Positions 58,610 to 63,407 of a stretch of DNA of 64,000 nt are shown here, one piece after another. The DNA is taken from assembly GCA_024244705.1 (NCBI GenBank), contig JAAEOK010000036.1, positions 1 to 64,000 of the forward strand. Reading direction: 5' to 3'. This stretch comes from Alphaproteobacteria bacterium. GTDB lineage: Bacteria > Pseudomonadota > Alphaproteobacteria > JAAEOK01. Position numbers and translations under genes: made by a program. The notes under the pieces were generated by a model. The model worked only from the letters and a program-made list of their open reading frames with translations. It had not been told where the DNA came from and did no database searches. The first letter of the stretch is position 1. Every line of letters starts with the position of its first letter.

Positions 58610-59611
58610 CTAGACCGTCAGGATGATCTTGCCGATATGGGCGCTCGAATCCATCAGCGCATGCGCCGCCGCGGCTTCGGCGAGGGGATAGGTCGCGTGG
58701 ACGACCGGACCGATTTGCCCGGAATCGAGGAGCGGCCACACGTTGTCCTCGAGCGCCGCGGCGATGGCGGCTTTCTGGGCGATGGAGCGCGGCCGCAGGG
58801 TCGAGCCGGTTATGGTCAATCGCTTCATCATCATCGGGCCGAAATTGACTTCGGCCTTGGCGCCGCGGAGGAAGGCGATTTGCACCAGACGCCCTTCGAC
58901 GGCGAGCGCGCTGATGTTGCGCTGGATGTAATCGCCGCCGACCATGTCGAGGATAAGATCGACTCCCTTGTCATCGGTGAGGCCGCGGACGACCTCGACG
59001 AAGTCTTCGTCGCGATAGTTGATGCCCCGCTCGGCGCCGAGCTCCTCGCAGGCGCGACACTTGTCGGCCGAGCCGGCGGTGGCGAAGACGCGGGCGCCGA
59101 AGGCATTGGCCAATTGAATTGCGGTGGTGCCGATTCCGCTCGACCCGCCATGCACCAGAAAGGCTTCGCCGGGGACCAGCCGGCCGCGTTCGAACACATT
59201 GGTCCACACGGTGAAATAGGTCTCCGGCACTGCCGCCGCGCGAATCGGATCGTAGCCGGTGGGGAAGGGGAGGCATTGCAGCGCCGGGGCGACGCAGTAT
59301 TCGGCGTAGCCGCCGCCGGCGACCAGGGCGCATACCTGATCGTCGACTTTCCACCGATCGTTGTTGTCGCCGACAGCGACGATGGTGCCCGCAACCTCGA
59401 GCCCGGGAATGTCCGTGGCGCCCGGCGGCGGCGCATAATTTCCCTCGCGTTGCAGCACGTCGGGTCGATTGACTCCGGCCGCCGCCACCTTGATCAAGAC
59501 CTCGTTGTCGCCGGGGACCGGGAGATCCCGCGCGCCCGCCACCAGGACGTCCGGTCCGCCGGGCTCGGTGATTTCGATCGCGGTCATCATGTCGGGCAGG
59601 GCGGATGTCAT
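58610..59611 (-). CDS. NAD(P)H-quinone oxidoreductase, PIG3/zeta-crystallin-like
   Basis: A 333-residue medium-chain dehydrogenase without catalytic zinc. Marks are VAAAGVNRPDVLQREGNYAPP, GLEVAGTIVAVG, and the NADPH-binding VHGGSSGIGTTAIQLA followed by FATAGSADKC. The C-terminal RSIAQKAAIAAAL region fits the PIG3 subgroup. It reduces quinones by one electron in related proteins. It begins at ATG 59611, with a second in-frame Met soon after. Confidence 0.9.
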   Translation of the reverse strand: MTSALPDMMTAIEITEPGGPDVLVAGARDLPVPGDNEVLIKVAAAGVNRPDVLQREGNYAPPPGATDIPGLEVAGTIVAVGDNNDRWKVDDQVCALVAGGGYAEYCVAPALQCLPFPTGYDPIRAAAVPETYFTVWTNVFERGRLVPGEAFLVHGGSSGIGTTAIQLANAFGARVFATAGSADKCRACEELGAERGINYRDEDFVEVVRGLTDDKGVDLILDMVGGDYIQRNISALAVEGRLVQIAFLRGAKAEVNFGPMMMKRLTITGSTLRPRSIAQKAAIAAALEDNVWPLLDSGQIGPVVHATYPLAEAAAAHALMDSSAHIGKIILTV

Positions 59612-59704: not shown

Positions 59705-59887
59705 ATGGAGCCGGACGACCTGGAACCGCAGAAACAAGCGAAGCCCAAAAAGAACCTGGATCCGATGTCGATCGACGAATTGGAGGGCTATATCGCGGAA
59801 CTCGAGACCGAGATCGAACGCGTCAGGGGCGACATTCGAAAGAAGCAGGCGCACCGCGCCGGCGCCGATGCGTTTTTCAAGAAGTAG
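59705..59887 (+). CDS. DUF1192 family small protein
   Basis: A 60-residue protein: DPMSIDELEGYIAELETEIE, then an RVRGDIRKKQAHRAGADAFF end. This is the DUF1192 pattern, an alphaproteobacterial small coiled-coil family of unknown role. It is read from ATG 59705 to TAG 59885-59887. Confidence 0.88.
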   Translation: MEPDDLEPQKQAKPKKNLDPMSIDELEGYIAELETEIERVRGDIRKKQAHRAGADAFFKK

Positions 59888-59957: not shown

Positions 59958-60740
59958 GTGTTGAAGGGAAAATCCGCGTTGATTACCGGGTCGACCAGTG
60001 GAATCGGATTGGCGATCGCGACCGCGCTTGCCCGAGACGGTTGCAACGTGATGTTGAACGGGCTGGCGGACGCCGCCGAGATGGCGGATATCGCGGCCGG
60101 GCTGACGCGCGACCACGGCGTCAAAGCCGCTTTCAACGATGCCGATATGAGCAAGCCGGACGAGGTCGCCGCGCTGGTCGGCGCGACCGCCGAGGAATTG
60201 GGTGGGGTCGATATCCTGGTCAATAACGCGGGGATTCAGCATACCGCGCCGGTGCATGAATTCCCGACCGAGATGTGGGACGCCATCATCGCGATCAATC
60301 TGTCGGCGGTGTTCCATGCGATACGCGCGGCGCTTCCCCCCATGCGGGAAAGAGGCTGGGGTCGCGTGGTGAACACAGCATCGGTCCACGGTCTGGTGGC
60401 ATCGGTCAACAAGGCCGCCTACGTCGCGGCAAAGCATGGAATCGTCGGCCTGACCAAATCCGTCGCTCTCGAGAACGCCGGCACCGGCGTTACCTGCAAC
60501 GCGGTCTGTCCGGGCTGGGTGAGGACGGAATTGATCGAGCGGCAGATTGCGGCGCGGGCGGCCGAGCAGGGCATCGAGATTGAGGCCGGTGCCCGCGACA
60601 TTCTGCAGGAAAAACAGCCGTCCCAGCAGTTCGTGACCGTCGAACAGGTCGCCGGGCTGGTCGTGTTCCTGTGCAGCGATGCCGCCGCCCAGATTACCGG
60701 CGTGGCGGTCCCCATCGATGGCGGATGGACGGCGCAGTAA
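59958..60740 (+). CDS. bdhA: 3-hydroxybutyrate dehydrogenase
   Basis: A 260-residue classical SDR: TGSTSGIGLAIATAL, NNAGIQHTAPVHEF, Ser in NTASVHGLVAS, and YVAAKHG. The later QPSQQFVTVEQVAGLVVFL matches D-beta-hydroxybutyrate dehydrogenases, which oxidise 3-hydroxybutyrate to acetoacetate in PHB turnover. GTG 59958 follows GAAGGAG by 7 bases. Confidence 0.9.
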   Translation: MLKGKSALITGSTSGIGLAIATALARDGCNVMLNGLADAAEMADIAAGLTRDHGVKAAFNDADMSKPDEVAALVGATAEELGGVDILVNNAGIQHTAPVHEFPTEMWDAIIAINLSAVFHAIRAALPPMRERGWGRVVNTASVHGLVASVNKAAYVAAKHGIVGLTKSVALENAGTGVTCNAVCPGWVRTELIERQIAARAAEQGIEIEAGARDILQEKQPSQQFVTVEQVAGLVVFLCSDAAAQITGVAVPIDGGWTAQ

Positions 60741-61009
60741 CGATTTCACGGGATCCAGGCCAGGATCTACCCGGTCCCTGACGGCGGCGCGCCGTATCGA
60801 TTCCGAATTTTTGGCTTAAAATCAGGCGTTTGGCGTGATTTTGACGCGGGTTGGCCGTTGCCGCGCTCATCGAACGTTAACCTTTGGCAGGTATCGTGAC
60901 GGTGCCGGTTCGAGGCCCGATTTGGCTAAAATATTGCTATAATTTCAATCAATTATCAGAATAATACAGAATAAAATTCCTTAAAATGTGGCTAGACATG
61001 GTTAATTCA
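60741..61009. other. AT-rich intergenic leader region
   Basis: The region holds no gene. From about 60915 base composition drops sharply to AT-rich, with a TATAAT at 60938-60943. A nine-base inverted pair, AACGTTAAC at 60873-60881 and GTTAACGTT at 61020-61028, lies 140 bases apart. One GATTC (a GANTC methylation site) lies near 60799. No DnaA box is seen. Confidence 0.5.
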
Positions 61010-61025
61010 TTAACTTTATGTTAAC
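61010..61025. promoter_or_regulatory. CtrA-type box TTAA-N7-TTAAC
   Basis: The sequence TTAA, seven bases, then TTAAC is the full consensus for CtrA, the cell-cycle response regulator of alphaproteobacteria. It lies in a sharply AT-rich island, about 90 bases before a strong terminator, with no gene between on the plus strand. Confidence 0.6.
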
Positions 61026-61039
61026 GTTTAGCCGTTAGG

Positions 61040-61153
61040 GTGGCAATTGCGGGGAGAACACCACTACCGGCAACCCGGACGACATCCAACCCTCGTTGAC
61101 GCCTCCCTGTGATCCTTGGAGCCGCCCTGACCCCGGCGGCTCCAAGTCTTTCT
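61040..61153 (+). ncRNA. Candidate small RNA under CtrA control
   Basis: If transcription begins 20 to 40 bases after the CtrA box, a transcript of about 100 bases would end at the hairpin at 61115-61146. It would carry a CCTCCC string near 61102-61107, a motif able to pair with ribosome-binding sites, as in several alphaproteobacterial small RNAs. No open frame with a ribosome site is seen. The boundaries and existence are inferred. Confidence 0.35.
61115..61153 (+). terminator. Strong intrinsic-type hairpin
   Basis: A perfect 12-bp stem CTTGGAGCCGCC/GGCGGCTCCAAG with an 8-base loop (61115-61146) is followed by TCTTTCT. It lies 375 bases after the bdhA stop, too far to be its natural terminator, and points toward the plus strand. 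Confidence 0.75.
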
Positions 61154-61167
61154 GGGTTCCGAAAAAT

Positions 61168-61965
61168 CTAATTACCTGATTTTAAAGAATTTTCTCGATT
61201 AGGCGTCGGCGCCGCGAGGACGCCGGACGCGGTCTGAGTGGGACCGTTCAGCGGGCCGATTGCGACCGGCGGGCCGGCGATTTCGCGCACCAATTTGTGC
61301 AGGATCGCCTTGGCGAAATCGAAATAATCGTCGGCGCGAACGACGAATGCGGCGTGGCCGCCGATGACATTGTTGATGTAGTAGTCGTCGAGCCGGAAAT
61401 TGTCGTTGAGGATCGTCAATCCGTTGATCGTGATGCCTTTGGCAACGGCGATGTCGCGGAAATCACCGGGTTGCGCGCCCTGATTGGCGGAGCCGTCGCC
61501 CGAGACGTCGATCGCCAGCCGCGCGGCATCGTAGTCGTTGATCTCGAGTTGGCGGGTGGCGAATTGGAGCGCGCCGGCGATCGCCGTGCTGCCGCCGTTG
61601 CCGTAGCGGGCGACGCCATCGATCTCGGTGGCGAAGACGGCGGCGCCGGCGGCGTCATTGATATGCATCCAGTCGATCGACAGTTCCTGGTTGTACCAAT
61701 CCGACCATTGAATCAGCGACACCGCGATCCCGTTGGGGCCGGCGAGCTCGATCGCGTCGAGAACCGCGGGGTCGCGAAACGCCTGGGCGAGCCCCTTCAT
61801 TTGTAAGTGAAATTCCTGAAGGTCGACACTCGACGACACGTCGACGGCCAGGACCAGCTCCAGGTCGACCAGCTTGCGGGCACTATTTTCGGTCTGAGCC
61901 GGTGCATGGCTTGCGGCCAAGAGCACACCGAGCGCGATGAGCGGAAGGAGCGGTCGCGGTCCCAT
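61168..61965 (-). CDS. DUF1194 secreted von Willebrand A-like protein
   Basis: A 265-residue protein with a signal peptide (LLPLIALGVLLAASHAPAQ) and a DUF1194 domain. The metal-site motif DVSSSVD gives D-x-S-x-S, and the domain continues ISLIQWSDW-like (VSLIQWSDWYNQ) and AIDVSGDGSANQG. DUF1194 proteins are VWA-like and probably bind metal and protein partners in the periplasm. It converges on the candidate small RNA. Confidence 0.85.
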   Translation of the reverse strand: MGPRPLLPLIALGVLLAASHAPAQTENSARKLVDLELVLAVDVSSSVDLQEFHLQMKGLAQAFRDPAVLDAIELAGPNGIAVSLIQWSDWYNQELSIDWMHINDAAGAAVFATEIDGVARYGNGGSTAIAGALQFATRQLEINDYDAARLAIDVSGDGSANQGAQPGDFRDIAVAKGITINGLTILNDNFRLDDYYINNVIGGHAAFVVRADDYFDFAKAILHKLVREIAGPPVAIGPLNGPTQTASGVLAAPTPNRENSLKSGN

Positions 61966-62111: not shown

Positions 62112-63407
62112 ATGGTCGAGCCCAACTACCTGAAATTCGACACCTTGAGCCTTCACGCGGGGCAGCATCCGGACCCCGATTTTGGCGCCCGCGCGGTGCC
62201 GATCTTTCAGACCACCAGCTATTTGTTTCCGGACACCGAATACGCCGCCTCGCTGTTCAATCTCGAACGCGCCGGCCACATCTATTCGCGCATTTCGAAC
62301 CCGACCGTGGCGGTTCTCGAGGAACGACTGGCCGCGCTCGAAGGCGGCGTCGGCGCGGTCTGCACGGCCAGCGGCCAAGCGGCACTCCATCTCGGCGTCG
62401 CCACGCTGATGGGCGCGGGCGACCACATCGTCGCCTCGTCGTCCCTCTACGGCGGCAGCCACAACATGTTCACCCATACGCTGCCGCGCTTCGGCATCAC
62501 CACCAGCTTCGTCGAACCGCGCGACACCGATGGGTTCGCCGCCGCGATCCGCCCGGAAACGCGCCTCGTCTTCGGCGAGACCCTGGGCAACCCGGGCCTC
62601 GAGATCATCGATCTCGAAGCGGTGACGGCGATCGCCCATGCGGCCGGCGTTCCGGTCATGGTCGACAACACCTTCGCGACCCCCTATCTGTGCCGGCCGT
62701 TCGACTACGGCGTCGATATCGTCATGCATTCGGCGACCAAGTTCATCGGCGGGCACGGCATCGCCATCGGCGGCGTCCTCATCGACAGCGGCAACTTCGA
62801 TTGGGAAGGTTCGGGCCGATTCCCGACCCTCACCGAGCCCTATGCCGGCTACCATGGACTCGACTTCGCCGAGGAATTCGGACCCGCCGCCATGATCATG
62901 CGCGCCCGCGCCGAAGGGCTGCGCGATTTCGGCGCCTGCATGAGCCCGGCCAACGCCTTCTATTTGCTGCAAGGCGTCGAGACCCTGCCGCTCCGCGTCC
63001 AGCGCCATGTCGAGAATACCCGCAAGATCATCGAGTTCCTGATGAATGCGCCGGAGGTGGCATGGGTCAGCTATCCAGAGCTGCCCGATCATCCCGATCA
63101 CGAGCGGGCCAAGCACTATTTGCCCAAGGGATCGGGAGCGGTCTTCAGCTTCGGCATCAAGGGGGGACGCACGGCGGGCCGTAAGTTCATCGAGGCGCTG
63201 CGCCTGTTTTCCCATCTCGCCAATGTCGGCGACGCCAAGTCCCTGGTCATCCACCCGGCGAGCACCACCCATCAGCAAATGGATGCCGACGCGCTCGCCG
63301 CCGCGGGTATCGGCGAAGAGCTGGTTCGTCTGTCGGTTGGCCTCGAAGACGCCGACGATTTGGTCGACGATTTGCGCCAGGCCCTGCGCGCGTCCCAGAA
63401 GGCCTAG
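62112..63407 (+). CDS. metY: O-acetylhomoserine aminocarboxypropyltransferase (PLP)
   Basis: A 431-residue Cys/Met-metabolism PLP enzyme. ATG 62112 follows GGACAGGAA. It has LHAGQHPDP, YSRISNPT, the PLP-binding Lys K210 in HSATKFIGGHG, and VDNTFATPYLCRP. The 430-residue length and GGH after the lysine fit MetY, which makes homocysteine from O-acetylhomoserine and sulfide. No known SAM riboswitch is visible upstream. Confidence 0.9.
   Translation: MVEPNYLKFDTLSLHAGQHPDPDFGARAVPIFQTTSYLFPDTEYAASLFNLERAGHIYSRISNPTVAVLEERLAALEGGVGAVCTASGQAALHLGVATLMGAGDHIVASSSLYGGSHNMFTHTLPRFGITTSFVEPRDTDGFAAAIRPETRLVFGETLGNPGLEIIDLEAVTAIAHAAGVPVMVDNTFATPYLCRPFDYGVDIVMHSATKFIGGHGIAIGGVLIDSGNFDWEGSGRFPTLTEPYAGYHGLDFAEEFGPAAMIMRARAEGLRDFGACMSPANAFYLLQGVETLPLRVQRHVENTRKIIEFLMNAPEVAWVSYPELPDHPDHERAKHYLPKGSGAVFSFGIKGGRTAGRKFIEALRLFSHLANVGDAKSLVIHPASTTHQQMDADALAAAGIGEELVRLSVGLEDADDLVDDLRQALRASQKA

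Follow-up and report, generated by a model that had tools for sequence, protein, structure and literature searches.

What kind of element occupies the 427 bases between the stop codon of bdhA (60740) and the 3' end of a DUF1194 gene (61168) in the alphaproteobacterial contig JAAEOK010000036.1? An earlier note on the window, i.e. the whole stretch of 64,000 nucleotides that was analysed, had seen a CtrA box and a hairpin there and had suggested a cell-cycle small RNA, plausibly a new family member. The reading that we favour, at a probability of roughly three in four, is that positions 61048–61153 would form a free-standing, CtrA-activated gene for a trans-acting small RNA, a relative of BjrC1505 that represses its targets through an anti-Shine-Dalgarno core. 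The genes around it are:

58610–59611, minus strand: PIG3-type quinone oxidoreductase (QOR; TIGR02824, 499.5 bits), the upstream neighbour common to the loci of this RNA family
59705–59887, plus strand: DUF1192 protein (PF06698)
59958–60740, plus strand: bdhA, 3-hydroxybutyrate dehydrogenase (TIGR01963), between QOR/DUF1192 and the small RNA
61168–61965, minus strand: DUF1194 (VWA-like) protein (PF06707), convergent with the small RNA
62112–63407, plus strand: MetZ-like O-acetylhomoserine sulfhydrylase (NF006004), a downstream neighbour also at several family loci

Since the intergenic region is flanked by the 3' ends of bdhA and of the DUF1194 gene, no gene starts in it on either strand. From the end of bdhA it is 270 bases to the box and 375 to the hairpin, the latter being the distance given earlier. 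The element itself is composed as follows:

60900–61050, no strand: AT-rich promoter island, with a GC content of 0.31–0.35 at 60900–61049 versus about 0.6–0.7 farther out
61010–61025, plus strand: CtrA box TTAA-CTTTATG-TTAAC (TTAACTTTATGTTAAC), conserved, with one mismatch at most, at 137 of the 141 family loci
61036–61041, plus strand: −10-like element TAGGGT, 11 nt past the second TTAA, a position that matches the family's TAnnnT
61048–61153, plus strand: predicted small RNA of about 105 nt, BjrC1505-like by its RF02356 match and by our own model R1
61096–61110, plus strand: conserved single-stranded core TTGACGCCTCCCTGT, nearly invariant in 50 diverse members
61102–61107, plus strand: anti-Shine-Dalgarno CCTCCC inside the core
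61115–61146, plus strand: terminator hairpin with a perfect 12-bp stem (61115–61126 pairs with 61135–61146)
61147–61153, plus strand: T-rich tail TCTTTCT, directly past the hairpin

The perfect box, the abrupt AT-rich island, the 12-bp hairpin with its T-rich tail and the CCTCCC string had all been claimed in the earlier note, and each of them was recovered at the stated coordinates. The box is the only exact match to TTAA-N7-TTAAC in the window, where 0.02 would be expected and 2 of 100 shuffled sequences had one. Taken alone, an exact box is weak evidence, the motif not being over-represented in the genome (over both strands of its 4.5 Mb, 28 exact matches versus 35 for the reversed pattern); the observation at 61010–61146 stands far above chance because it is conserved in relatives. 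Among 141 distinct loci gathered by the core sequence, with the box absent from the query, 60 have a perfect TTAA-N7-TTAA, versus 0.48 on average and 3 at most when their upstream segments are dinucleotide-shuffled, and the 137 that carry it with at most one mismatch compare with a shuffle mean of 10.6 and a maximum of 16. These loci share descent and are not independent draws; the stronger argument is the comparison of the box columns with those adjoining them. In a logo of 88 representatives (identity <75%), the TTAA columns hold 1.2–2.0 bits, the spacer mostly <0.4 and the preceding flank mostly <0.1. The consensus of these representatives reads TTAACC-N5-TTAA, followed by a TAnnnT-like −10 that lies exactly 11 nt past the box in 24 of the 88 and within range in 42, versus 21.8 in shuffles. 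Family boxes are mostly found 65–78 nt upstream of the core, their first base clustering 80–93 nt before ACGCCTC. Judged by its sequence, this arrangement is that of a CtrA-activated promoter (TTAA-N7-TTAAC with a −10 about 11–14 nt downstream); the window has the same layout, which would place the transcription start at about 61048. The arrangement is comparable to that of the Caulobacter small RNA gene ccnA, with its CtrA box at −23 relative to the start (PMC8959179).

The genome encodes CtrA (71% identical to Caulobacter CtrA over 225 aa), and the region upstream of ctrA carries GTTAAC half-sites; in the ctrA leader no obvious match to the small RNA core was found by eye. About 1.9 kb from ctrA, an exact CtrA box (L315, G000:C85:81825–81840) lies upstream of a hybrid-kinase-like gene which, as judged by eye, resembles cckA. 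Several further exact boxes are packed into about 100 bp ahead of a crotonase-like gene (L300–L306, G000:C32:96138–96241), a cluster that might represent either a promoter under strong CtrA control or something akin to an origin.

The segment 61040–61160, which spans the predicted transcript, folds at −48 kcal/mol (z −2.7). In 50 diverse members three helices covary, with 86% of cells paired and 58 double-change cells versus 16.8 ± 3.5 in shuffles, a number that none of 500 shuffles reaches, and sliding the structure lowers pairing to 37–49%. Pairing reaches 97% in the terminator helix, where compensatory changes are seen as well; the core, which lies between helices 2 and 3, remains unpaired and nearly invariant. 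The T tract of the window is weaker than the T6–T9 of most relatives.

At a permissive threshold, Rfam yields a single plausible match, that of the family RF02356 (BjrC1505) to 61003–61149 over its full length (29.1 bits, E 7.7e-4); at the gathering threshold, which for RF02356 is a curated cut-off of 50 bits, Rfam gave no match in the window. On sequence grounds, the window RNA is a divergent homologue of BjrC1505, not a curated member. Of the earlier proposal, the part concerning a conserved CtrA-box RNA family stood, while the family itself is not new. BjrC1505, a small RNA of Bradyrhizobium japonicum, has the core TTGACGCCUCCCUGU, the GC-rich terminator and the upstream box region in common with the window, where the single-stranded core and the 3' terminator helix are both retained; the standard 5' hairpins of Rhizobiales members (GAGTGG..CCACTC) are replaced there by a different 5' fold. 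The locus corresponds as well, with QOR upstream on the opposite strand and MetZ downstream, bdhA and the DUF1194 gene intervening. Positions 1–45 of the RF02356 model align to 61003–61047 in the window, i.e. the CtrA-box promoter was seemingly modelled as RNA. On the 88 box-anchored representatives, the 5' helix of that model pairs in 52% of cells versus 29–48% when slid and is thus unsupported; we therefore infer that the 5' end of the model is promoter rather than RNA.

Hairpin, CCTCCC core and upstream box, whose joint conservation had been put forward as a check, are kept together across many alphaproteobacterial families. Model R1 scores window positions 61040–61149 at 47.9 bits (E 6e-11), the window being among its 50 training sequences. 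In a sample of 385 genomes of the class, blastn returned repeated matches to precisely the core and the hairpin, and of 289 class genomes searched with the RF02356 model, 43 have a match at E ≤ 0.01, as opposed to 0 of 14 control genomes, Caulobacter vibrioides among the latter. A DNA pattern of the core and the terminator start, TTGACGCCTCCCTGTKN{3,14}GCCGC, occurs in at least 118 stretches of named genomes; the matches listed include Bradyrhizobium, Rhodopseudomonas, Nitrobacter, Mesorhizobium, Phyllobacterium, Bosea and Chelatococcus, and further Stappia, Roseibium, Sneathiella, Rhodospirillaceae and others. R1 gave matches in 238 of 385 genomes of the class, a number that does not measure the size of the family, because alpha-R8-like RNAs and terminators are mixed in among the matches at weak E-values. 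No match was obtained at E 0.001 by blastn of the region against genomes of the same class put up as relatives, nothing with the DUF1194 protein as bait in genome contigs, and no relative by blastn of plasmids and phages with one Rhizobium-type query. Two loci (L020 in G377 and L049 in G209) hold tandem BjrC1505-like copies that are spaced by about 200 nt and precede an RcdA-like gene, those of L020 with a TTAA box each, and one genome (G001) has dispersed copies (L039, L062). As far as sequence can tell, the small RNA family is widespread in Alphaproteobacteria, usually just before rcdA.

CtrA is a master switch of the cell cycle, and the product of rcdA is an adaptor for CtrA degradation. 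The usual order at family loci is TrcR, QOR on the opposite strand, the small RNA, and rcdA or MetZ. QOR is found upstream in 49 of 86 loci; among 110 loci, rcdA follows in 91, at a distance of up to 1 kb and in the same orientation, and MetZ in 7. The assignment of RcdA relies on an NCBIfam equivalog (205.7 bits, cut-off 170) and PF07323. By gene order, the window locus (QOR, DUF1192, bdhA, small RNA, DUF1194, MetZ) is the MetZ version with two genes added, a context that the earlier note had missed. An rcdA gene was not found in the whole genome to which the window belongs (97% complete, such that a missed copy is possible; the Caulobacter control was positive). In 33 family-bearing genomes rcdA is detected in 30, in some of them elsewhere, and in 3 none was detected.

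Given this linkage, the element could instead be the 5' leader or attenuator of a CtrA-driven rcdA, where termination at the hairpin sets RcdA levels and the small RNA is a by-product. The 91 loci with rcdA close by on the same strand speak for such a role, as do agrobacterial rcdA orthologues, in which transcription has several starts and CtrA motifs lie at an unusually great distance upstream (PMC10469942). We nevertheless consider it unlikely. In the window no rcdA lies downstream, and the search of the whole genome yielded none, so that the RNA is not an rcdA leader here; box and core persist in the 3 genomes without detectable rcdA and in several that have it elsewhere; the downstream genes vary (MetZ, convergent DUF1194); extra copies occur both in tandem and dispersed; and the single-stranded core is conserved beyond the needs of termination alone. 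At one further locus (L133:1618), the small RNA points the other way with respect to QOR and rcdA, possibly by an assembly artefact, and therefore cannot be an rcdA leader there. At other loci, read-through from the small RNA into rcdA is plausible.

We likewise doubt that the TTAA boxes are bound by some other factor or are a mere AT-rich promoter element with CtrA uninvolved, a view that draws on the sequence-only nature of the evidence and on the lack of motif excess in the genome. The free spacer of TTAACC-N5-TTAA and the preferred distance to the −10 correspond to the CtrA consensus, however, CtrA is present in the genome, and a CtrA-driven small RNA has a precedent in CcnA (PMC8959179). 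It is far less probable still that the hairpin terminates a long bdhA 3' transcript and that the box is a chance AT-rich match. Although bdhA does lie upstream on the same strand, the recurrent neighbours of the family are QOR, rcdA and MetZ, and core, box and hairpin are conserved jointly; these other contexts refute in the main what had been named in advance as an outcome fatal to the small RNA. An open GTG frame of 19 codons starts near the −10, at 61040, yet we give hardly any credence to a short leaderless protein as the product, as family members show indels of varied length there and conserve base pairs instead.

For the free-standing small RNA, we propose the following mechanism. CtrA would bind the TTAA-N7-TTAA box, which, lying 11 nt ahead of a weak −10, would stand in for a −35 element, such that high levels of CtrA~P switch the RNA on. 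The transcript would end at its own hairpin terminator, and the exposed UUGACGCCUCCCUGU, probably together with Hfq, could then pair with a set of mRNAs at their Shine-Dalgarno regions (GGGAGG) and repress them. CtrA would thereby gain a post-transcriptional repressing arm. The reading as a translational repressor acting in trans follows from the anti-Shine-Dalgarno seed and from the closest characterised small RNAs with the same seed, which act on ribosome-binding sites with Hfq. A search of 30 family-bearing genomes with the 11-mer complement of the core, CAGGGAGGCGT, gave no conserved target with an 11-nt match before a start codon; 11 of the 72 CAGGGAGGCGT sites examined, some of which are the small RNA itself, precede an open frame of at least 60 codons, and no two of these 11 are homologous. 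The lack of a conserved long target site fits a short seed with many targets. In the window's genome, the best target lead, albeit a weak one, is an EF-G-like gene (L272, G000:C81:61105–61117) that has TCAGGGAGGCGTC, a 12-nt complement of the core, just before its GTG start, which lies 14 nt past the first matched base.

To our knowledge, CtrA-driven small RNAs of known role are nearly limited to CcnA. In the open-access literature searched, BjrC1505 is mentioned in one paper, as a table entry, and RF02356 not at all; the family therefore seems functionally uncharacterised. As far as this literature shows, which proves no absence, neither a CtrA promoter nor a link to rcdA has been reported for the family, nor how broadly it occurs. 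What is new is the link of an uncharacterised small RNA family to CtrA and rcdA, while the kind of RNA itself is not. The CtrA box and the site before rcdA make the family a candidate post-transcriptional arm of the CtrA network, directly testable in many genera amenable to laboratory work, such as Bradyrhizobium, Mesorhizobium, Phyllobacterium, Stappia and Bosea. Moreover, where CtrA boxes have been reported far ahead of rcdA, they may in fact be those of the small RNA. We regard it as possible, if somewhat short of an even chance, that across Alphaproteobacteria an ancient small RNA, encoded in the region upstream of rcdA, is paired with the CtrA circuit; a single promoter driven by CtrA~P would then give a CtrA-dependent riboregulator and, where transcription reads through, the adaptor for CtrA destruction as well, and lineages that lost rcdA would have kept the RNA arm.

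Among known systems, GspR and EcpR1 of Sinorhizobium meliloti are cell-cycle small RNAs acting in trans and tied to CtrA, GcrA and DnaA. GspR, for which there is no known promoter signature (PMC5928217), differs from the window family in its locus, and EcpR1 has a sigma-70 promoter stimulated by ppGpp (PMC7143759). CcnA (CCNA_R0094) of Caulobacter crescentus shares with the window family a CtrA box near the start, a C-rich pairing loop and a cell-cycle context; it is a 182-nt RNA in the replication origin whose CCCC pairs with GGGG (PMC8959179), whereas the window family has the QOR-rcdA/MetZ locus and the core GCCUCCCUGU. The window's neighbours, bdhA, DUF1194, QOR and MetZ, do not place it at the chromosome origin, and the conserved unpaired core of the family is without the CCCC of CcnA loop A.

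The alpha-R8 family (MmgR, SisA-D; Rfam RF00519 'suhB'; SorX) resembles the window RNA in its single-stranded CCUCCCU anti-Shine-Dalgarno core and its terminator, but has another 5' part, ACGUCUCCCAGACGUGAAG, and neither the CtrA box nor the QOR/rcdA/MetZ synteny. RF00519 has no match in the window at E ≤ 10, and the window core reads UUGACGCCUCCCU where alpha-R8/MmgR/SisA has the 10-mer UUUCCUCCCU. A second CCUCCCU small RNA candidate in the window's genome, L231:1478–1530 on the plus strand (G000:C88:12977–13029), is alpha-R8/mmgR-SorX-like, lacks a CtrA box and scores 31 bits with RF00519, under its cut-off of 41. Divergent R1 matches form two groups, one with the box and mostly the synteny, the other reading ACGUCUCCCAGACGUGAAGCCUCCCUGUU with neither and giving weak Rfam matches to suhB/mmgR and SorX; the latter are an internal negative control. 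This split makes CCUCCCU plus terminator a module of two small RNA families, the CtrA box going with one. The Caulobacter SisA-D RNAs, of the alpha-R8 kind, act via the CCUCCCU anti-Shine-Dalgarno core (PMC12559287), and by analogy the window RNA and the alpha-R8 RNAs likely work in the same way.
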